Source: Urbifossiella limnaea (GTDB lineage Bacteria > Planctomycetota > Planctomycetia > Gemmatales > Gemmataceae). From it: a stretch of 64,000 nt of DNA. Under the pieces are notes generated by a model, which was not told where the DNA came from, ran no database searches, and saw nothing but the letters and a program-made list of their open reading frames with translations. The position numbers and the translations under genes are program-made. Shown here one piece after another: positions 39,259 to 51,773 of the stretch (the first letter of the stretch is position 1; every line of letters starts with the position of its first letter). Location of the stretch: positions 7,176,322-7,240,321 of the forward strand of contig NZ_CP036273.1 in assembly GCF_007747215.1 (NCBI RefSeq). The letters are read 5' to 3'.

Positions 39259-40182
39259 TCACCCCCGCCCGGTCTCCGACGGCCGCTCGCCGAAGTGGCG
39301 GCGGTAGTCGGCGGCGAAGTTCCCGAGGTGCGTGAACCCGTACTCCCGTGCCGCCGCGGCGACCGGCACGCCCGCGTCCGCCGCGAGCCGGGTGCGGACC
39401 GCGTTCAGCCGGAGCCGCCGGTAGAAGGTCATCGGGCCGCACCCGTACTGCTCCTTGAAGACGAGCCGCAGGGTGCGGTCGCTCGCGCCGAGCGCGGCAC
39501 ACAGGTCGAGGACGCCGAGCGGGCTCCGGAGGCTGCCGCGCATCAACTCCTCGGCCCGGCTCAGCAGGCTCAGCCGGGCCGGGAGCGTCGGGCTACGCCC
39601 GGCCTCCTCCCCGGTGCCGAGCGCCCGGGCGACCAGCCGCAGGTACTCCTGTTCGAACTGCCCGGCCTCGGGGTCGCTGAGGACCGGCCAGTCGCCGGTC
39701 GCGCCGAGCAACCGGTCCGTCGCCAGTCCCAGCGCGCGGTAGTCGTCGGGGCGCGGCGTGAGCACGGCCCACGCCCGCAGGGCGGGGAGCGGGTCGGGGC
39801 CGCCGATCGCGCGCGTCGCGGCCTCCAGCGCGGCCACGGGCACCGAGACGTTGAGGTACTCGGACGTCCGCGCCGACCGGTGATCGATGCCCGCGTCGGG
39901 GCCGCGGACGACCACCTGCCCGGGGTCCAGTCGCTGCCCGTGCCACACCCCGGCGGCGTTGCCCGGGAGCACGGGGGTGAGCGAGACGATGGTGCCGTTC
40001 TCCTGTCCGCGGAGGCGGAGGCTCTGCGTGCCGGTGATGCGGATGACCCGCACCGCACGGCTCCGCACCACCTGGAGCGACCCCTCGAAGCGCCCGCACG
40101 TGACCTGCTCGATGGTCCCGTCCCACCCCGCGAAGCACATGGGCACCTGCTCGAAGCTCGTCAGCCTGGAGCGAACCGCCAT
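39259..40182 (-). CDS. AraC-family transcriptional regulator
   Basis: 307 residues. The N-terminal ~200 residues are a cupin-like sensing domain of the AraC_binding_2 kind. The C-terminal ~100 residues carry the double helix-turn-helix: LDLCAALGASDRTLRLVFKE, then YGCGPMTFYRRLRLNAVRTR and VPVAAAAREYGFTHLGNFAA with the terminal YRRHFGERPSE. It is the only regulator on the island and is divergent from sulfatase gene 1 across 223 nt. It is the obvious candidate to bind the three 19-nt boxes. Convergent with the OprB gene (35 nt). Confidence 0.93.
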   Translation of the reverse strand: MAVRSRLTSFEQVPMCFAGWDGTIEQVTCGRFEGSLQVVRSRAVRVIRITGTQSLRLRGQENGTIVSLTPVLPGNAAGVWHGQRLDPGQVVVRGPDAGIDHRSARTSEYLNVSVPVAALEAATRAIGGPDPLPALRAWAVLTPRPDDYRALGLATDRLLGATGDWPVLSDPEAGQFEQEYLRLVARALGTGEEAGRSPTLPARLSLLSRAEELMRGSLRSPLGVLDLCAALGASDRTLRLVFKEQYGCGPMTFYRRLRLNAVRTRLAADAGVPVAAAAREYGFTHLGNFAADYRRHFGERPSETGRG

Positions 40183-40290: not shown

Positions 40291-40405
40291 CACCCACCCG
40301 CTGCTTGCACCGGTGTCCGAACACAATTACCCTACTGGGCTGGATAAGATTCAGCCAATCCGGTCGGGCGTGTTGTCATCCCCTTTCCCGCGTGAGGTCG
40401 CAGCT

Positions 40406-42166
40406 GTGAAGAGATCGTACCTCGGTAGCCTGGCGCTGGTCGCGCTCGGCAGCGCCCTCGGGTGGGCGGCGGCGTCGGGCAAGTTCGAGCTGCGGCCGGT
40501 CGCCGCGGCCCCGGAAGTGTCGGTCCCGCTCCCCACGCCGAGCGTCGCCCGCGCGACGCCGGGCGCGCCGGCCTGCTGCGACGTCGGCGGGGGCCGTGCC
40601 CCCAACGTGAGCCCGGCCGAGGCGGCGGCGCTGCTGGCGCACAACCAGCAGGTGACGGCCCAGGCGCAGAAGGACGGGAAGAAGCCGAACATCCTCGTGA
40701 TCTGGGGCGACGACATCGGGGTGCACAACATCTCGGCGTACAACCACGGCATCATGGGCTACCAGACGCCGAACATCGACCGCATCGCCCGCGAGGGCGC
40801 GCTGTTCACCGACGCCTACGGCGAGCAGTCGTGCACCGCCGGCCGGGCCGCGTTCCTCCTCGGCCAGCACCCGTTCCGCACCGGCATGCTCACCATCGGC
40901 ATGCCCGGCAGCACCCACGGCATCCCGCCCTGGGCGCCGACGATCGCCGACCTGCTGCTGAACCACGGCTACCTGACCGCGCAGTTCGGGAAGAACCACC
41001 TCGGCGACCAGGACAGCCACCTCCCGACCGCCCACGGGTTCGGCGAGTTCTTCGGCAACCTGTACCACCTGAACGCCGAGGAAGAGCCCGAGACGTACTA
41101 CTACCCGAAGGACCCCGAGTTCCGCAAGAAGTTCGGCCCGCGCGGCGTGATCAAGTCCACCGCCGGCGGCGAGATCAAGGACACCGGGCCGCTCAACCGC
41201 AAGCGGATGGAGACGATCGACGAGGAGATGCTGGCGTCCAGCCTCGACTTCATGGACCGGGCGGTGAAGGCCCAGAAGCCGTTCTTCCTGTGGCACAACA
41301 GCACCCGCATGCACGTGTGGACGCGGCTGAAGAAGGAGAGCGAGGGGAAGACCGGCATCGGCCTGTACCCGGACGGCATGGTCGAGCACGACGGCCACGT
41401 CGGCCAGCTGCTCAAGAAGCTCGACGACCTGGGGATCGCCGACAACACCATCGTGATGTACTCGACCGACAACGGGGCCGAGTCGGGGTCGTGGCCGGAC
41501 GGCGGGATCACGCCGTTCTTCGGCGAGAAGGGGACCACCTGGGAGGGCGGGCACCGGGTGCCGCTGCTGGTCCGGTGGCCCGGGGTGCTCAAGGCGGGGA
41601 GCAAGATCATCGACCCGATCGCCCACAACGACTGGCTCCCGACGTTCCTGGCCGCGGCCGGCGAGCCGGACGTCAAGGAGAAGTTGAAGACCGGCCACCG
41701 AGCCAACGGGAAAGACTTTAAGGTCCATTTGGACGGGTACAACTGGTTACCATTCTTCCAGGGGCGGGAGGCGCGGAGCCCCCGGAACGAGTACCTGTAC
41801 TTCGGCCAGGGCGGCGAGCTGAACGCGGTCCGCTACCGCAACTGGAAGGTCCACTTCGCCACCTTCCAGGGGAACATCGCGACCGGGGTGCGGCAGGTGT
41901 CGAACTGGCCGCTCATCATCAACCTCCGGGCCGACCCGTACGAGATGATGTGGAAGCACGGCGAGATGGGGTACCTCCGCTGGTACGCCGACAACATGTG
42001 GATCTTCGTCCCCATCCAGGGGGTCATCCGCGACTTCTTCGCCGACTACGACAAGTTCCCCCGCCAGGAGGGGAGCAGCCTGAACGCCGCGGGGATCAAC
42101 TACAACTCGATCCGCGTCCAGGAGCTGATGCGCCGCCTCGAGGCGCCGGCGACGCCGCGGAACTGA
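40406..42166 (+). CDS. Exported Cys-type sulfatase 1 (arylsulfatase family)
   Basis: 586 residues from GTG 40406, preceded by GAGG and opening a leader (SYLGSLALVALGSALGWAAA). Sulfatase fold: KKPNILVIWGDDIGVHNIS gives the metal aspartates. The active-site motif SCTAGRAAFLLGQHPFRTG has Cys143, the residue to be oxidised to formylglycine, in C-x-A-x-R form where C-x-P-x-R is canonical. QFGKNHLGD, FLWHNSTRMHVWT and YSTDNGAESGSW (metal Asp-Asn) complete the site. It hydrolyses sulfate esters; the substrate is unknown. It is a paralogue of the gene at 43057. A hairpin at 42178-42210 follows. Confidence 0.93.
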   Translation: MKRSYLGSLALVALGSALGWAAASGKFELRPVAAAPEVSVPLPTPSVARATPGAPACCDVGGGRAPNVSPAEAAALLAHNQQVTAQAQKDGKKPNILVIWGDDIGVHNISAYNHGIMGYQTPNIDRIAREGALFTDAYGEQSCTAGRAAFLLGQHPFRTGMLTIGMPGSTHGIPPWAPTIADLLLNHGYLTAQFGKNHLGDQDSHLPTAHGFGEFFGNLYHLNAEEEPETYYYPKDPEFRKKFGPRGVIKSTAGGEIKDTGPLNRKRMETIDEEMLASSLDFMDRAVKAQKPFFLWHNSTRMHVWTRLKKESEGKTGIGLYPDGMVEHDGHVGQLLKKLDDLGIADNTIVMYSTDNGAESGSWPDGGITPFFGEKGTTWEGGHRVPLLVRWPGVLKAGSKIIDPIAHNDWLPTFLAAAGEPDVKEKLKTGHRANGKDFKVHLDGYNWLPFFQGREARSPRNEYLYFGQGGELNAVRYRNWKVHFATFQGNIATGVRQVSNWPLIINLRADPYEMMWKHGEMGYLRWYADNMWIFVPIQGVIRDFFADYDKFPRQEGSSLNAAGINYNSIRVQELMRRLEAPATPRN

Positions 42167-42177
42167 CCCGTCCCGCG

Positions 42178-42210
42178 AGCGGCCCGGCGGAGAACACCCG
42201 CCGGGCCGCT
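42178..42210 (+). terminator. GC-rich hairpin after sulfatase 1
   Basis: Arms AGCGGCCCGGCGG (42178-42190) and CCGCCGGGCCGCT (42198-42210) pair perfectly over 13 bp with a 7-nt loop. It starts 12 nt after the stop codon. There is no T-run, so it is a weak terminator or an mRNA-stabilising hairpin. Confidence 0.55.
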
Positions 42211-42244
42211 CCCCCGTTGACCCTCACCCGAACCGACTCCCACG

Positions 42245-42688
42245 ATGAGTGCCACACCCGTCGGGCCGATCGGGCAATTCTTCGTCCGAACCGTCCGCCC
42301 GTTCTTCCTGCTCACGGGGGCCGGGACGGCGCTGGTCGGGCTCTACGCCGTCGCCCCCGCGTGGGCCATGCCCAACGTGGCGAAGTTGCCCTACCTGCGG
42401 GACTACACGGTCATCGTCCAGCACTGGGGGATCATGGTCGGCCTCATGGGCGCGGCCATGATGCTCGCCGCCGTGGTCCCGGCCTGGCGCGTCCCGATCC
42501 TGCTCTACAGCGCGCTGGAAAAGGCGTTCATGGTGTGGCTCGTGCTGTCCAACGCCGGCGAGCCGTTCGTGAGCGGGTTCTGGGTTCCGTTCGCGGTCGA
42601 CGCCACCGTGGTGATCTACACCGTCGGCTACTTCGCCGCCGTCGGCTTCCGGGCGCCGCCACCGACACACCCGCCGCGGGCAAATTGA
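42245..42688 (+). CDS. Four-TM membrane protein, unknown function
   Basis: 147 residues with four hydrophobic helices: ~18-40 (FFLLTGAGTALVGLYAVAPA), ~60-82 (GIMVGLMGAAMMLAAVVPAW), ~86-104 and ~110-135 (FAVDATVVIYTVGYFAAVGF). No catalytic motif is visible. It sits between the two sulfatase genes, 34 nt beyond the hairpin, on the same strand. It could be an accessory of the sulfatase module, but I cannot name a family. Confidence 0.75.
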   Translation: MSATPVGPIGQFFVRTVRPFFLLTGAGTALVGLYAVAPAWAMPNVAKLPYLRDYTVIVQHWGIMVGLMGAAMMLAAVVPAWRVPILLYSALEKAFMVWLVLSNAGEPFVSGFWVPFAVDATVVIYTVGYFAAVGFRAPPPTHPPRAN

Positions 42689-42942
42689 TACCAGAGCGGG
42701 TAGATCCGCGGCTGGTAGTCGCAAGTGTCGTCGGGCCAGAGACTCCCGCCGCGGCCGACCCGAACGAATCGTTCCAACAGTATTTCTTCCAGACGACTCA
42801 GTGCTTCCACGGACGGGGTGTCTCCGTCCCTGGAACCAATGAGAGCCGCCCGAGCCCGCCGGCGTGCGAGCCCGGCCAGCCCTCGCGGGTAACGAACGTG
42901 GCGAGGTGCTCGAAATCGGTGTGGGTCGCTTACCCCAGCCGT

Positions 42943-42961
42943 TTGCCGATTGTGGATAGTC
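42943..42961 (+). promoter_or_regulatory. Island box 3: candidate AraC operator upstream of sulfatase 2
   Basis: Reads TTGCCGATTGTGGATAGTC. It lies 96 nt before the sulfatase 2 start, in a 368-nt gene-free stretch (42689-43056). Its presence suggests that sulfatase 2 has its own regulated promoter and is not only read from sulfatase 1. Confidence 0.5.
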
Positions 42962-43056
42962 GACTGGTTTGACTTTGGGAGTTACCGGTCTTGCACGTAT
43001 GGCAGACCGTGGGACGCGCTCGCACCGCCGCCCCACATGTCTCCACGGGACACAAC

Positions 43057-44847
43057 ATGATGACTCGCTCCAACCTCGTCGCGGGGGCGTTCGTCGCCCT
43101 CGCGGCCACACTCGGGTGGGCGGCCGGGGCCGACCGCCTCAGCCTCCCGTTCGCCCGCACGGTCGCCGCCGAGCCTGCCGAGCAGCCCGTCGCGGTGCCG
43201 CTCCGCGCGCCCGCGGCGCGGCCCGGCCCCGCCGCCGGTCCCGTCGATTGTGCCCCGGCCGACCCTGTCGCCGCCGCGGTCGCCATCCACAACCAGCAGG
43301 TCGTGGCCCAGGCGCAGAAGGACGGGAAGAAGCCGAACATCTGCGTCATCTGGGGCGACGACGTCGGGCAGTCGAACGTCAGCGCCTACACGATGGGGCT
43401 GATGGGCTACCGCACCCCGAACATCGACCGGATCGCCCGCGAGGGCATGATCTTCACCGACTACTACGCCGAGCAGAGCTGCACCGCCGGCCGGGCGTCG
43501 TTCATCACCGGCCAGCACGGGCTCCGCACCGGGCTCACCAAGGTCGGCCTCCCCGGCGCCACCCTCGGCCTCCAGGCCGAAGACCCGACCATCGCGATCA
43601 TCCTCCAGATGCTCGGGTACGCGACCGGGCAGTTCGGCAAGAACCACCTCGGCGACCGGAACGAGTTCCTCCCCACCGTCCACGGGTTCGACGAGTTCTA
43701 CGGCAACCTGTACCACCTGAACGCGGAGGAGGAGCCCGAGCTGCCGGACTACCCGCGCGACCCGGCGTTCCGCGCCCGGTACGGCCCGCGCGGGGTGCTC
43801 GACACCAAGGCCAGCGACAAGGACGACCCGACCGTGGACCCGCGGTTCGGCAAGGTCGGCAAGCAGGTCATCAAGGACACCGGCCCGCTGACCAAGAAGC
43901 GGATGGAGACGATCGACGACGACGTGGCCGCCCGGTCGGCCGAGTTCATTCAGCGGCAGGCGAAGGCGGGCAAGCCGTTCTTCGTGTGGGTGAACTTTAC
44001 CCACATGCACCTGCGCACCCACGTCAAGCCGGAGAGCCGTGGCCAGTCCGGCCCGGGGATGAGCGCGTACATCGACGCGATGATCGACCACGACAAGAAC
44101 GTCGGCACCGTCCTCAAGGCGCTGGAGGACGCCGGGGTGTCGGACAACACGTTCGTGATGTACGGCACCGACAACGGCCCGCATATGAACTCGTGGCCGG
44201 ACGGCGCCATGACCCCGTTCCGGAACGAGAAGAACTCGAACTGGGAGGGCGCCTACCGGGTGCCGTGCATGGTCCGGTGGCCCGGCCGGATCCGCCCGGG
44301 GAGCGTGTCCAACGAGATGGTCGCGCACCTCGACTGGCTGCCGACGTTCGCGGCGATGGCCGGCGACGACCAGATCACCCAGAAGCTGCTGGCGGGGCTG
44401 CGGGTCGGGGACCGGACGTACAAGGTCCACCTCGACGGGTACAACCTCGTCCCGTACCTGACCGGGCAGGTGCCGAAGAGCCCGCGCGAGTCGTTCATCT
44501 ACTGCAACGACGACCAGCAGGTCACCGGCCTGCGGTACCACCAGTGGAAGATCGTGTTCATGGAGCAGCGGGTGCAGGGAACGCTACGCATCTGGGCCGA
44601 GCCGTTCGTGATGCTGCGGGTGCCGAAGATTTTCAACCTCCGGCTCGACCCGTACGAGCGGGCCGACATCACCTCGAACACCTACTACGACTGGCTGATG
44701 GACCATGTGTTCCTGCTGGTCCCGGCGCAGGACTACATCGGCAAGTTTCTGATGACGTTCCGCGACTACCCGCAGCGGCAGAAGGCCGCGAGCTTCAACC
44801 TCGACGACGTGATGCGCCGCCTGTCGGAAGGCCACGGGAGCCGGTGA
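43057..44847 (+). CDS. Exported Cys-type sulfatase 2 (arylsulfatase family)
   Basis: 596 residues. ATG 43057 (an ATGATG pair) opens a signal sequence (SNLVAGAFVALAATLGWAAG). The layout is the same as sulfatase 1, including the shared block NQQVVAQAQKDGKKPNI and the active-site motif SCTAGRASFITGQHGLRTG with Cys142. QFGKNHLGDRNEFLPTVHGF, FVWVNFTHMHLRTH and YGTDNGPHMNSWPDG follow. The two proteins are clear paralogues but differ in the middle (residues ~230-290) and in the C-terminal part, so they may act on different substrates or positions. Both need formylglycine formation, supplied by the gene at 46614. Confidence 0.93.
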   Translation: MMTRSNLVAGAFVALAATLGWAAGADRLSLPFARTVAAEPAEQPVAVPLRAPAARPGPAAGPVDCAPADPVAAAVAIHNQQVVAQAQKDGKKPNICVIWGDDVGQSNVSAYTMGLMGYRTPNIDRIAREGMIFTDYYAEQSCTAGRASFITGQHGLRTGLTKVGLPGATLGLQAEDPTIAIILQMLGYATGQFGKNHLGDRNEFLPTVHGFDEFYGNLYHLNAEEEPELPDYPRDPAFRARYGPRGVLDTKASDKDDPTVDPRFGKVGKQVIKDTGPLTKKRMETIDDDVAARSAEFIQRQAKAGKPFFVWVNFTHMHLRTHVKPESRGQSGPGMSAYIDAMIDHDKNVGTVLKALEDAGVSDNTFVMYGTDNGPHMNSWPDGAMTPFRNEKNSNWEGAYRVPCMVRWPGRIRPGSVSNEMVAHLDWLPTFAAMAGDDQITQKLLAGLRVGDRTYKVHLDGYNLVPYLTGQVPKSPRESFIYCNDDQQVTGLRYHQWKIVFMEQRVQGTLRIWAEPFVMLRVPKIFNLRLDPYERADITSNTYYDWLMDHVFLLVPAQDYIGKFLMTFRDYPQRQKAASFNLDDVMRRLSEGHGSR

Positions 44848-44861
44848 CGCCGTAATGCTCG

Positions 44862-44899
44862 GGGGCGCCCGGCCGGTCGCACGACCGGCCGGGCGCCCC
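44862..44899 (+). terminator. Strong GC-rich hairpin after sulfatase 2
   Basis: Arms 44862-44879 (GGGGCGCCCGGCCGGTCG) and 44882-44899 are perfect reverse complements, an 18-bp stem with a minimal loop. It begins 15 nt after the stop codon. It probably ends or attenuates the sulfatase 2 transcript before the 2H-HAD gene. Confidence 0.65.
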
Positions 44900-44945
44900 G
44901 TCGTACAACGTGAGTGATCGGTTCACATCTCTGCGGGAGCAGGCA

Positions 44946-46577
44946 ATGCGATCGCTATTGGCCGCGATGCTGGGGGCTGCCTGTCTGCTGGCGGGCCTCG
45001 CGCCGGTCGTGCCGGCCCAGCCGCCGGCAGACGCCGGGGTGACGGCGATCGACGTGCTCCTCGACCCGGACGCGGTCATGGCGGACCGGGCCGGCGCGGC
45101 GAACGCCCGACTCCGCGGCGACTTCCCGAAGGGCTTCGCCCTCGACGCCGACCACGCCCCGCACGTCACCATCGTCCAGCGGTACGTCCGCACCGCCGAC
45201 CTGGAGAAGGTCTACTCCGCCGTGGCGAAGGTCGCCGCGGACGAGAACCCGACCGCGCTGGAGCTCCGGGCGACGGGATACTACGACATCCCGTTCCAGG
45301 AGCTGGGCCTGGCCGGGATCGTGGTCCGCCCGACGCCCGAGTTGCTCCGCCTCCAACAGAAGGTGATCGACGCCGTCGCCCCGTACACGGTCGCGAAGGG
45401 GACCGGCGCCGCGTTCGCCCCCGACCCCACCGGCGCGGCCATCAACCAGCCGACTATCGACTACGTCGCCGGGTTCGTGCCGGCGGGCAGCGGCGCGAAG
45501 TACAACCCGCACGTGACCGTGGGCATCGGCACGCGGGCGTTCGTCGACAAGCTCAAGGCCGAACCGTTCGACTCGTTCACCTTCAAGCCGCGGGCGGTCA
45601 GCGTCTACCAACTCGGGAATTTCGGCACGGCCCAGAAGCGGTTGTGGACCTCGGCCCCCGCCGACCCGCTGCCGTCGTGGAAGGACACCGCGAGCAAGGG
45701 GGCCGTCCTCGCCTTCGTCGCCAAGACGACGAAGGCCGGCGGCCCCGACTTCGTGCCCCCGGCGGAGCGGATCGCCGTGTTCGACAACGACGGCACGCTG
45801 TGGTGCGAGCAGCCGATCGTCCCCCAACTCGTTTTCGCCCTCGACCGGGTGAAGGCGCTCGCCCCCCAACACCCCGAATGGGCCGACAAGGAGCCGTTCA
45901 AGGCGGCGCTCGCCGGAGACGTGAAGGCGCTCGCGGCCGGCGGGACGAAGGGAGTCGTCGAGCTGATGATGGCGACGCACGCCGGCAACACCACGACCGA
46001 GTTCGAGGCGATCGTCGCCGCCTGGATCGCCGCCGCGAGGCACCCCAAGTACGACCGGCCGTACACCGAGACGGTGTACCAGCCGATGCTGGAGGTGCTG
46101 AGCCACCTGCGCGCGAGCGGGTACAAGACGTACATCGTGTCCGGCGGCGGGGTCGAGTTCATGCGGGTGTGGGCCGACCGGGTGTACGGCATCCCGCCCG
46201 AGCAGGTAATCGGCAGCACCATCGCCACTGAATACCAGGAGCGGGACGGCGTGCCGGTCCTGGTGCGGCTGCCCCGGCTCGACTTCAACGACGACAAGGG
46301 CGGGAAGCCGGTCGCCATCAACAAGTTCATCGGCCGCCGGCCGGTGATGTGCTTCGGCAACTCGGACGGCGACTACGAGATGCTCCGGTACACGACGGCC
46401 GGCGCCGGCCCGCGGTTCGGCCTGATCGTCCACCACACCGACGCCGCGCGCGAGTACGCCTACGACCGCACGTCCCACATCGGGCGGCTCGCCAGGGCGC
46501 TGGACGAAGCCCCGGCGCGGGGCTGGTCCGTGGTCAGTATGAAAGACGACTGGGCCACGATGTTCCCGCCCCGGTAG
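44946..46577 (+). CDS. Exported fusion of a 2H-phosphoesterase domain and a HAD phosphatase
   Basis: 543 residues from ATG 44946, with GGAG eight nt upstream and a signal peptide (MRSLLAAMLGAACLLAGLAP). Residues ~25-235 are a 2H (LigT/2'-5' ligase-like) domain with two H-x-T motifs: HVTIVQRYV (His73, Thr75) and HVTVGIGT (His189, Thr191). Residues ~265-543 are a HAD hydrolase: motif I VFDNDGTLW (Asp280, Asp282), motif II YIVSGGG, and motif IV CFGNSDGDYEML. All catalytic residues look intact. 2H enzymes open cyclic phosphodiesters and HADs remove phosphate, so a two-step dephosphorylation in the periplasm is a reasonable guess. It lies 36 nt ahead of the FGE gene, so the two are likely one operon. 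Confidence 0.87.
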   Translation: MRSLLAAMLGAACLLAGLAPVVPAQPPADAGVTAIDVLLDPDAVMADRAGAANARLRGDFPKGFALDADHAPHVTIVQRYVRTADLEKVYSAVAKVAADENPTALELRATGYYDIPFQELGLAGIVVRPTPELLRLQQKVIDAVAPYTVAKGTGAAFAPDPTGAAINQPTIDYVAGFVPAGSGAKYNPHVTVGIGTRAFVDKLKAEPFDSFTFKPRAVSVYQLGNFGTAQKRLWTSAPADPLPSWKDTASKGAVLAFVAKTTKAGGPDFVPPAERIAVFDNDGTLWCEQPIVPQLVFALDRVKALAPQHPEWADKEPFKAALAGDVKALAAGGTKGVVELMMATHAGNTTTEFEAIVAAWIAAARHPKYDRPYTETVYQPMLEVLSHLRASGYKTYIVSGGGVEFMRVWADRVYGIPPEQVIGSTIATEYQERDGVPVLVRLPRLDFNDDKGGKPVAINKFIGRRPVMCFGNSDGDYEMLRYTTAGAGPRFGLIVHHTDAAREYAYDRTSHIGRLARALDEAPARGWSVVSMKDDWATMFPPR

Positions 46578-46613
46578 TCGTCTTCTTCCACTTCCACAAC
46601 GTCGTGTAGGGCC

Positions 46614-47735
46614 ATGTCCGCCAAGAACCGCGAGCGCCGCGCGAAGAAACAGACCCCGACCGCGGTCGTCCCGGCTGTACCGACACCACCGTGGTGGCGG
46701 CGTGTCCTCCGACCGCTCGTGTACCTCGCCCTCCTCACGGCCGCGTTCGGCGCCGCTTACGGCGTCACGCTCCTCACCCGCCGCGGCAACCCGCCCGGGA
46801 TGGTGGCGGTCCCCGGCGGCGAGTTCGTGATGGGGGCCGACGACCTCCGCCACCGGAACGAGATGCCCGCCCACAAGGCGGTCGTGTCCCCGTTCTTCAT
46901 GGACCAGACGGAGGTGACGAACGCCCAGTTCCGGGCGTTCGTCGACGCCACCGGGTACGTCACCACGGCCGAGAAGCCGCCCGACTGGGAGGTGATGAAG
47001 AAGCAGTTCCCGCCCGAGACGCCGCGGCCCCCGGCCGAGAAGCTTGTGGCCGGGTCGATGGTGTTCACGCCCCCGGCCGAGGCCGTGCCCACGTCGGACA
47101 TGGCCCGGTGGTGGACGTGGACCCCCGGGGCGTGCTGGAAGCACCCCGAAGGCCCGGGGAGTGACCTCGCCGACCGCGACGAGCACCCGGTCGTCCACGT
47201 CTCGTGGGACGACGCGACCGCTTACGCCCTCTGGGCCGGGAAGCGCCTGCCGACGGAGGCCGAGTGGGAGTACGCCGCCCGCGGCGGCCTCGCCGGCAAG
47301 CGGTACGTCTGGGGTGACGAGCCCGCGACCGACACCGACGGCCGGGCCAACATCTGGCAGGGGACGTTCCCGCACCTGAACACCAAGGCCGACGGGTGGG
47401 ACCGGACCGCGCCGGTCCGCCGCTACCCGCCGAACGGGTACGGGCTGTACGACATGGCGGGGAACGTGTGGGAGTGGTGCGGCGACTGGTACCGGCCGAA
47501 CACCTACATCGGCCGCGTCGGGGTCACGACGGACCCGACCGGGCCGAAGACCTCGTGGGACCCGGGCGAGGCGTCGTCCCAGCGGCGGGTGACCCGGGGC
47601 GGGTCGTTCCTGTGCCACGCCTCGTACTGCGAGAGCTACCGCCCGTCGGCGCGGCGCGGCACCCCGTTCGACACGGGGATGTCCCACATCGGGTTCCGCT
47701 GTGTCATCAGCAAGACCGTCTGGGACGGTCGGTAG
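46614..47735 (+). CDS. Formylglycine-generating enzyme (sulfatase maturation), membrane-anchored
   Basis: 373 residues with one N-terminal membrane helix (~residues 38-55, after a basic N-terminus). The FGE fold is marked by GMVAVPGGEFVMGADD, DQTEVTNAQFRAFVDATGY, VSWDDATAYALWAGKRLPTE and AGNVWEWCGDWY. The decisive motif RGGSFLCHASYC holds both copper-binding active-site cysteines, Cys334 and Cys339, at the same four-residue spacing as in SUMF1. Many bacterial relatives lack these cysteines; this one keeps them. It should convert the active-site cysteine of the two island sulfatases to formylglycine, using O2, probably on the outer face of the inner membrane. Confidence 0.93.
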   Translation: MSAKNRERRAKKQTPTAVVPAVPTPPWWRRVLRPLVYLALLTAAFGAAYGVTLLTRRGNPPGMVAVPGGEFVMGADDLRHRNEMPAHKAVVSPFFMDQTEVTNAQFRAFVDATGYVTTAEKPPDWEVMKKQFPPETPRPPAEKLVAGSMVFTPPAEAVPTSDMARWWTWTPGACWKHPEGPGSDLADRDEHPVVHVSWDDATAYALWAGKRLPTEAEWEYAARGGLAGKRYVWGDEPATDTDGRANIWQGTFPHLNTKADGWDRTAPVRRYPPNGYGLYDMAGNVWEWCGDWYRPNTYIGRVGVTTDPTGPKTSWDPGEASSQRRVTRGGSFLCHASYCESYRPSARRGTPFDTGMSHIGFRCVISKTVWDGR

Positions 47736-50474: not shown

Positions 50475-51773
50475 CAGCGCGTATCAGACTGCTGGTAATG
50501 TCAGGACTTCGTCGAGGAACTGTGTATTCATCAGGCAGCGAATCATCTTCCCCCGGATGCTGTCCTTGATGGGATGCCGCTTCAGTAGCGTGACGGCGAA
50601 CCGCCGGAGCCAACTCAAGTTGTTCGCCAGCACCCGCTCGCGCGTCCGGCTCTCGTCCTCGCGGAACGTCACGTCCAAGACCCAGTGCATCGACTCGATG
50701 CCCCAGTGCGCCCGAACCGCCTCCCCGAAGCGTTTGCCGCTCAGGAACCGGCTCAGCATGTAGTACCGCACCTCGTCGCTCTGGGTCCCGTCGGCGTGCG
50801 TGGTGACCCGCACCGCCGTGCCGACGGCCTTGACCCACGGCCACTCCGCTCGGGCCGCAAAATCCGGCGGCACCTGGGCCACGAAGTAGAACCGCTCGTC
50901 ACGCCGGCCGTGCCCACGCTCGTCGGTCTCGTGGCGCCGGCGTTTGCGTGCCTCCAGTTCGCCGTCCAGGTGCTTCTCGACGACCGACCCGATGGCCTCG
51001 GCGAGCTTCGGCTGGTTGTCCTTCACGGCGATCACGAAGTCCCCGCCGCCGGCCACGACGTCCCGCGCGACGTCCTTCTGGCACCCCATCGCGTCGATCG
51101 TGACCACGGCCCTGGCGAGCTCGATCTGCTTCAGCAGGACGGGGATGGCAGTGATCTCGTTCGACTTCTCCCCGGTCGCGACCTGGCCCAACGCGACCCC
51201 GTGCTCGCTCGCCCAGGCGCTGACGACGTGCAGCGGACCCAGCCCGTTGGCCGCATCGTGGGACCGCCGGAGCGTCTTGCCGTCGATGGCGACCAGGCGG
51301 CCGGGGCCGCCCCCGGCGGGTGCCAGGGCGTCGGCGATCCACTCCTGGAAGCAGCGCTGGAAAGCCTCGGGCTGGAGGGCGATCAGCACCCGGCGGATGC
51401 AATCCCGTGAGGGGACGCCGTTGGGCAGCGTGAGGAACTCGTCGAGCCAATCCCGGCGGTTGGCGGCCCACCGGTGGATGGCGGTCGGGCCGTCGCACCC
51501 GCACACCAGGCCGCACACGGCGATCACCACGACGTCAACCAGGAGGTGCTTCCGGTTGCGGACGTGCCGGGGGTCGGACAACGACTCGAAGTAGGAGCCG
51601 ATGGCTTCGACGTTGACCCTCGTGGTCGCCATGCCGGTGGCCCCTCGGTGAGCGGGGCGGTGCCGGGATGCCCCCGACGGTCGTGTGGCCCGACGGCCCC
51701 GGCCCCAGGCCCTGGTGTACGCCGATGCGGCCCCTCGCGCAATGCCCCCCAGATTGCCCAGTTATGCGCGCTG
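50475..51773 (-). mobile_element. ISAs1-family insertion sequence
   Basis: 1299 bp bounded by CAGCGCGTATCA at 50475 and its counterpart at 51773 (CAGCGCGCATAA on the minus strand), 10 of 12 matching. It holds one transposase gene. The flanks (CCCACGGT on the left, GCCGTGCC on the right) are not a direct repeat, so no target-site duplication is visible. Confidence 0.72.
50484..51632 (-). CDS. ISAs1-family transposase
   Basis: 382 residues, full length for the family. Typical blocks are FESLSDPRHVRNRKHLLVDV, LVAIDGKTLRRSHD (first catalytic Asp), VTIDAMGCQKDVARDVVAGG (second Asp) and VRAHWGIESMHWVLDVTFRE (catalytic Glu), with the family's C-terminal LSWLRRFAVTLLKRHP. The DDE triad appears intact, so the element may still be active. 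Confidence 0.94.
   Translation of the reverse strand: MATTRVNVEAIGSYFESLSDPRHVRNRKHLLVDVVVIAVCGLVCGCDGPTAIHRWAANRRDWLDEFLTLPNGVPSRDCIRRVLIALQPEAFQRCFQEWIADALAPAGGGPGRLVAIDGKTLRRSHDAANGLGPLHVVSAWASEHGVALGQVATGEKSNEITAIPVLLKQIELARAVVTIDAMGCQKDVARDVVAGGGDFVIAVKDNQPKLAEAIGSVVEKHLDGELEARKRRRHETDERGHGRRDERFYFVAQVPPDFAARAEWPWVKAVGTAVRVTTHADGTQSDEVRYYMLSRFLSGKRFGEAVRAHWGIESMHWVLDVTFREDESRTRERVLANNLSWLRRFAVTLLKRHPIKDSIRGKMIRCLMNTQFLDEVLTLPAV

Follow-up and report, generated by a model that had tools for sequence, protein, structure and literature searches.

An exported 2H–HAD fusion protein of Urbifossiella limnaea and the recurrent coupling of its 2H family to phosphatases

Introduction

Chains that join a 2H phosphoesterase domain to a phosphatase are already known from eukaryotes, where STS-1/UBASH3 (TULA) carries a phosphatase of a different fold from the one described here (PMC10218301). 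The exported 2′,3′-cyclic phosphodiesterase/3′-nucleotidase CpdB performs both consecutive steps, ring opening and phosphate release, with catalysis assigned to its N domain (PMC7922932). In end healing by T4 Pnkp and by the yeast and plant tRNA ligases, 2′,3′-cyclic phosphates are processed by either a DxDxT (HAD) module or a 2H module (PMC3400036). Among 2H enzymes of known activity, LigT opens a 2′,3′-cyclic phosphate to give 2′-AMP (PMC5283653) and STS-1 opens one to give a 3′-nucleotide (PMC10218301); the 2′- or 3′-phosphate of these products would then be freed by a phosphatase.

Here we describe a 2H–HAD fusion encoded in a 64,000-nucleotide stretch of the Urbifossiella limnaea chromosome (hereafter the window), which departs from each of these systems. 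STS-1/UBASH3 is eukaryotic and cytosolic, has UBA and SH3 domains and draws its phosphatase from the histidine-phosphatase (PGM) superfamily, whereas the window protein has a HAD domain and neither UBA nor SH3, and thus falls outside that family. CpdB is an unrelated metallophosphoesterase, whereas the window chain holds two different enzymes, and Pfam finds in it neither the metallophosphoesterase N domain nor the 5_nucleotid_C domain of CpdB and UshA. In the T4 Pnkp and tRNA ligase modules, HAD and 2H are alternatives in different systems, serving intracellular RNA repair together with a kinase or ligase, whereas the window protein has both in one chain. The first-pass annotation knew of no characterised enzyme with this domain order; that holds for the searchable literature (subscription papers and architecture databases lay outside its scope), in which no report of a 2H–HAD or PAP2–2H protein was found, although STS-1/UBASH3, with its other phosphatase fold, has to be acknowledged as a known 2H-plus-phosphatase chain. 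The pieces, namely the 2H-and-phosphatase chain of STS-1/UBASH3 and the two-step exported CpdB, are thus already known.

Architecture of the fusion protein

The gene is an open reading frame on the forward strand with an ATG start and 543 codons free of stops and frameshifts, and an alternative GTG at 44910 would lengthen it by 12 codons. It is present as a single copy in the window's own genome. Pfam recognises two domains in the protein and no others: 2_5_RNA_ligase2 (PF13563, 2.4e-6, residues 55-196), which at 28.1 bits narrowly clears its cutoff of 27, and HAD (PF12710, 5e-12, residues 277-481). One chain with a predicted export signal, a 2H domain and a HAD domain, as proposed at first pass, is borne out by the reading frame, Pfam and fold matches, and the residue numbers given there (H73/T75, H189/T191, D280/D282, SGGG and GNSDGD, all in one frame) prove exact. 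The SGGG motif spans residues 399-402, GNSDGD spans 471-476, and T284 completes a DxD(x)T signature.

44946..46577, + strand: 2H–HAD fusion protein, predicted to be exported, 543 aa (open reading frame, Pfam, 4OVY match, AF2, fold comparison)
44946..45017, + strand: predicted signal peptide, residues 1-24, MRSLLAAMLGAACLLAGLAPVVPA, followed by Q; cleavage placed by eye after VPA
45036..45665, + strand: 2H phosphoesterase domain, residues 31-240 (AF2 pLDDT 79.2, pTM 0.81; Z about 15 to LigT/CPDase folds)
45162..45170, + strand: first H-x-T motif, H73-V-T75 (H in 17/17 and T/S in 17/17 relatives; both motifs in 21/21)
45510..45518, + strand: second H-x-T motif, H189-V-T191 (17/17; both motifs in 21/21)
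45663..46571, + strand: HAD phosphatase domain, residues 240-542 (4OVY, E 9e-127; PF12710; Z 18.5 to 4OVY)
45783..45791, + strand: HAD motif I, nucleophile and acid, D280-N-D282 (64/64)
46140..46142, + strand: HAD motif II, S399 (S in 57 or T in 7 of 64)
46305..46307, + strand: HAD motif III, K454 (64/64)
46365..46373, + strand: HAD motif IV, metal ligands, D474-G-D476 (D474 in 58/64, D476 in 64/64)

The 2H domain

Because the Pfam score of the window's 2H domain is marginal, its reality was checked in three ways, through the scores of its relatives, motif conservation and the predicted fold. The 2H parts of close relatives score much better (to 1.1e-11, with LigT_PEase over its cutoff, and with 45.5 bits to PF13563 in L002), and both H-x-T/S motifs are retained in all 21 intact relatives, which come from three phyla and one viral contig. 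An AF2 model of the full 543-residue chain, built from 11 sequences, reached a pLDDT of 57.7 with most of the 2H part below 50, and the 2H part was therefore refolded alone; the model of residues 31-240, from four sequences only, has the pLDDT and pTM listed above. Nearly all of its Foldseek matches in the PDB at E <= 0.001 are 2H proteins, with Arabidopsis CPDase at the top (1.6e-6), and VIA-align gives Z scores of 15.1 to TT0787 (1IUH), 15.0 to Deinococcus CPDase (5H7E) and 14.4 to LigT (5LDM). The lack of a structural 2H fold in the N-terminal part, named at first pass as what would overturn the assignment, is thus not what the model indicates. As judged by its motifs, the bilobal fold of the model and the profile match, the N-terminal domain is a genuine member of the 2H phosphoesterase superfamily.

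Its place within the superfamily is more distant. LigT/ThpR and the plant and Deinococcus CPDases resemble it in fold (Z about 14-15), in the two H-x-T motifs and in the ring-opening chemistry to be expected, but the window domain is only 12-20% identical to them, exported and fused to a phosphatase. It has no match to the NCBIfam LigT/ThpR model TIGR02258, against which the Rhizobium jaguaris relative reaches E 0.15 and 11.9 bits (cutoff 65.7), and by this profile it would lie outside that equivalog. Nor does it match any other family in NCBIfam or any in PHROGs. A PDB sequence search with a 2H profile returned no credible match, so that the domain is placed among solved structures by fold comparison only. 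Some proteins with the 2H fold, such as 2′-5′ PDE, Usb1 and AKAP18, are inactive on cyclic diesters or non-catalytic.

The HAD domain

The C-terminal 303 residues match the structure of a Planctomyces limnophilus HAD protein solved by structural genomics, 4OVY, at 57-60% identity (E 9e-127), and across 64 HAD homologues D280, D282, K454 and D476 never vary, position 399 holds S or T, and D474 is kept in 58. The HAD part of the full-length model is usable, with 4OVY as its best structural match (Z 18.5), followed by 4AS2, the exported phosphorylcholine phosphatase PchP of Pseudomonas aeruginosa (Z 13.4, 21% identity). By motifs and fold, the domain is assigned to the HAD-superfamily phosphatases. 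Exported HADs of the 4OVY type resemble it over the whole C-terminal 300 residues, in motifs and in their sulfatase neighbourhood, but 4OVY has no 2H domain. PchP shares the DxD...S...K...D/D motifs and likewise lacks a 2H domain; at that identity, the likeness is one of overall fold, apart from choline specificity.

This HAD family is frequent without a 2H partner: it occurs in 50 of 392 planctomycete genomes and, in the order to which the Bradyrhizobium genome G442 belongs, in 33 of 199. At 37 of 61 HAD loci a sulfatase gene shares the strand of the HAD gene (mostly within a 1.5 kb flank, with a few loci overlapping each other). Since most of these HADs have no 2H partner, the family has a function beside sulfatases that is independent of 2H. 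No paper was found in the searchable literature on 4OVY, on its function or on this HAD beside sulfatases.

The sulfatase and FGE neighbourhood

The fusion gene lies in a one-strand cluster at 40313-47735, with two FGly-type sulfatases (motif CTAGR) and a small membrane protein upstream and a formylglycine-generating-enzyme-like protein (FGE) downstream.

39259..40182, - strand: AraC-family regulator, divergent from the cluster (Pfam HTH_18, 1e-20)
40313..42166, + strand: sulfatase 1, exported, start codon uncertain, motif CTAGR (Pfam Sulfatase, 3.2e-46)
42245..42688, + strand: 147-aa membrane protein between the sulfatases (no Pfam match above cutoff)
42991..44847, + strand: sulfatase 2, exported, start codon uncertain, motif CTAGR (Pfam Sulfatase, 8.9e-48; best PDB match 7aj0)
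44862..44899, + strand: perfect GC-rich hairpin with 18-base arms and no T-run, in the gap between sulfatase 2 and the fusion gene (-61.6 kcal/mol, z -5.3; single copy in the window)
46614..47735, + strand: FGE (Pfam FGE-sulfatase, 1e-84), 36 bases past the fusion gene
50484-51632, - strand: DDE transposase (DDE_Tnp_1 and associated domain), downstream of the cluster

An operon of the fusion gene with FGE is plausible. On the forward strand of the cluster no sigma-70-like promoter and no T-run terminator was found, so the operon limits are provisional, and with the strong hairpin before the fusion gene, which may be a terminator, an attenuator or a stabiliser, a single transcript with the upstream sulfatase is not certain. 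Among the sulfatases around these HADs, 19 of 27 have CTAGR, the less usual C-x-A-x-R maturation motif, in place of C-x-P-x-R.

The link to sulfatases and FGE is genuine, and it is chiefly a feature of the HAD. The actinobacterial HAD/2H pairs and the rhizobial pair of G1003 have neither a signal peptide nor a sulfatase in the stretch examined, which makes the 2H–phosphatase logic separable from sulfated substrates. The same pairs leave unsupported, as it was stated, the earlier suggestion of substrates that bear both phosphate and sulfate.

Recurrent coupling of the 2H family to phosphatases

The 2H family is rare, being found in 1 of 392 planctomycete genomes (the window's own), 4 of 102 from the window's order and 5 of 397 from that of G442, and its gene neighbourhoods are therefore informative. 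Of 21 intact 2H relatives, 15 have a phosphatase either in the same chain or encoded close by (in two of these cases the HAD gene is damaged), and the coupled 2H genes span Planctomycetota, Alphaproteobacteria and Actinomycetota. The partners comprise five 2H–HAD fusions, two HAD–2H fusions, one PAP2–2H fusion and seven cases of separate neighbouring genes.

Fused 2H–HAD: the window, L002, L003, G397 and G798 (five genomes)
Fused HAD–2H, reverse order: Bradyrhizobium G930 and G1262 (Rhizobiales)
Fused PAP2–2H: Ensifer sp. PDNC004, L069:6125-7633, 503-aa open reading frame (PAP2 8.7e-19, C-terminal 2H PF13563 5e-5)
Separate genes, sulfatase-2H-HAD: G396 and G908
Separate genes, 2H-HAD: G1003
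Separate genes, sulfatase-HAD-two ORFs-2H: Rhizobium jaguaris
Separate genes, HAD-2H: Streptomyces NBC_01276, 13 bases between
Separate genes, HAD-2H: Streptomyces NBC_01343, HAD truncated
Separate genes, HAD-2H: Rhodococcus qingshengii djl-6, HAD N-terminus apparently frame-shifted

Six of the 21 loci (two Rhodococcus plasmids, a phage contig, G920, G1323 and G1312) have no HAD or PAP2 in the stretch examined; G920, G1323 and G1312 each encode the HAD elsewhere in the genome. Among loci reached by 2H-only queries, 9 of 15 have a phosphatase, counts in which two loci are nearly identical to each other and one duplicates an earlier locus. The HAD is present in all eight rhizobial genomes with a 2H gene (including G1139, whose 2H gene is broken) against 33 of 199 (17%) in the order, a comparison in which three of the eight genomes came from sampling within Bradyrhizobium and the baseline is the whole order rather than Bradyrhizobium.

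Several further features of these and other loci are recorded here as observations. The Ensifer PAP2–2H frame, in a region left unannotated in its record, is flanked by sulfatases on both sides. The HAD–2H fusions are at L090:6033-7754, without a signal peptide and facing a calcineurin-like phosphoesterase gene, and at L105:6007-7776, exported and convergent with three sulfatase genes. In two Rhizobiales (L106:4326-6868 and L107:5022-8450, the latter with a broken 2H frame), 2H and HAD lie between lolA-like and exodeoxyribonuclease III-like genes, named by eye. The order at L104:6188-8432 is FGE-2H-sulfatase with no HAD nearby, the HAD being elsewhere in that genome. Fragments of 2H genes in three Bradyrhizobium genomes (L094, L095 and G864:C1:2679268-2679399) suggest frequent gain and loss. 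Scans of viral contigs for more 2H sequences yielded one contig only, an IMG/VR contig with an exported stand-alone 2H (L073:4875-5654) by phage-like genes and a resolvase, possibly phage cargo or a mis-bounded provirus. The idea of a CpdB replacement was dropped, as PF02872 is present in G000, G798, G908 and G930, is absent in six other genomes tested, and follows no pattern.

The couplings have arisen more than once. In the 2H tree, the Ensifer PAP2–2H domain and the two HAD–2H domains form one clade (support 100/99), which indicates that the N-terminal phosphatase was swapped between unrelated superfamilies while the 2H domain was kept. The HADs coupled to 2H domains fall in separate clades of the HAD tree, and the AU test rejects a single origin for them (p 1.3e-73). 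It also rejects a common clade for the HADs of the five 2H–HAD fusions, because the L003 HAD groups with that of Bradyrhizobium G930; the p of 0.0065 is indicative only, as the AU tests used a rapidly built tree and an earlier tree had in part prompted the choice of one group.

A proposed two-step reaction

We propose that the window protein is an exported tandem phosphoesterase that releases phosphate in two consecutive steps, a reading to which we give a probability of roughly 0.6. The 2H domain, through H73/T75 and H189/T191, would convert a small cyclic phosphodiester, either 2′,3′-cyclic-nucleotide-like or some other vicinal cyclic phosphate, into a phosphomonoester by opening the ring, and the HAD domain, with D280 as nucleophile and D282 as acid, would then take the phosphate off this monoester. 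Candidate substrates are cyclic phosphates based on inositol, glycerol, ribose or nucleotides, and the neighbouring sulfatases and FGE would form an associated scavenging or catabolic module outside the two-step reaction itself.

The proposal rests on both folds, on the conservation of both active sites and on the repeated, independent coupling of 2H to phosphatases. Consecutive steps would be expected to leave just this pattern, one enzyme joined time and again, on either side, to phosphomonoesterases of two folds. No evidence speaks better than this recurrent pairing for a 2H product that may feed the phosphomonoesterase, and the support it gives is indirect but strong. The two-step idea of the first-pass annotation thus gains from the coupling to two unrelated superfamilies in either order; catalysis, step order, the cyclic substrate and a periplasmic or extracellular location are what we infer. 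Against the proposal stand the six 2H genes with no phosphatase in the stretch seen and the many HADs without 2H. HAD-type phosphatases, with T4 Pnkp as precedent, can moreover process cyclic phosphates alone.

The recurrence of the pairing also bears on how else the two domains might be related. They could share a compartment and a scavenging programme and still act on separate substrates, the 2H domain on a linear or cyclic diester and a phosphorylcholine-phosphatase-like HAD on a small phosphomonoester such as phosphocholine, beside the sulfatases. The likeness of the HAD part to PchP, an exported HAD that acts on phosphocholine (PMC3170909), would fit such an arrangement, as would the prevalence of this HAD without 2H and beside sulfatases, and G1312, where 2H accompanies FGE and a sulfatase with the HAD not nearby; yet both domain orders and the replacement by PAP2 are hard to explain without a shared flow of substrate, and the actinobacterial pairs exist without a sulfatase, so that we regard separate substrates as unlikely.

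That the protein degrades a cyclic nucleotide second messenger or an RNA-end signal in the manner of Acb1 or 2′-5′ PDE, with the phosphatase finishing the product and possibly with a part in counter-signalling or defence, seems to us improbable: the structural matches do include cGAMP and 2′-5′A phosphodiesterases and Acb1, and there are a stand-alone 2H in a phage contig and cytoplasmic versions on actinobacterial plasmids, but LigT and CPDase are the closest structures by Z, the window form and most relatives have signal peptides, and the surroundings hold sulfatases and FGE and no defence genes that we could see. AKAP18 is also among the structural matches, which raises the thought of a catalytically idle 2H module that binds or anchors substrate for the phosphatase or regulates it; the presence of both HxT/S motifs in all 21 proteins, stand-alone 2H included, makes this very improbable. 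An assembly or frameshift artefact that merges two adjacent genes might be suspected from relatives in which 2H and HAD are separate, but the 2H–HAD layout is found again in four further genomes from separate assemblies, of which one is a single contig, and with the intact frame this refutes an artefact for practical purposes.

Implications

Beyond the two-step reaction of the window protein, a broader and more tentative picture is that this undescribed 2H subfamily is a modular phosphate-release enzyme that combines an exported cyclic phosphodiesterase with interchangeable phosphatases (several HAD lineages and PAP2) for a specific, so far unrecognised environmental cyclic phosphodiester tied to sulfatase-driven degradation. 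The exchange of HAD for PAP2 on one 2H clade offers a clear-cut natural test of how modular such enzymes are. If the two-step reading is true, it would become possible to test directly what an exported 2H enzyme does physiologically, since the genomes already identify the following step as that of a phosphomonoesterase; a widespread, uncharacterised family of exported HADs found with sulfatases would gain a function as well, and a cyclic phosphodiester would be indicated as a source of phosphate in the environment.
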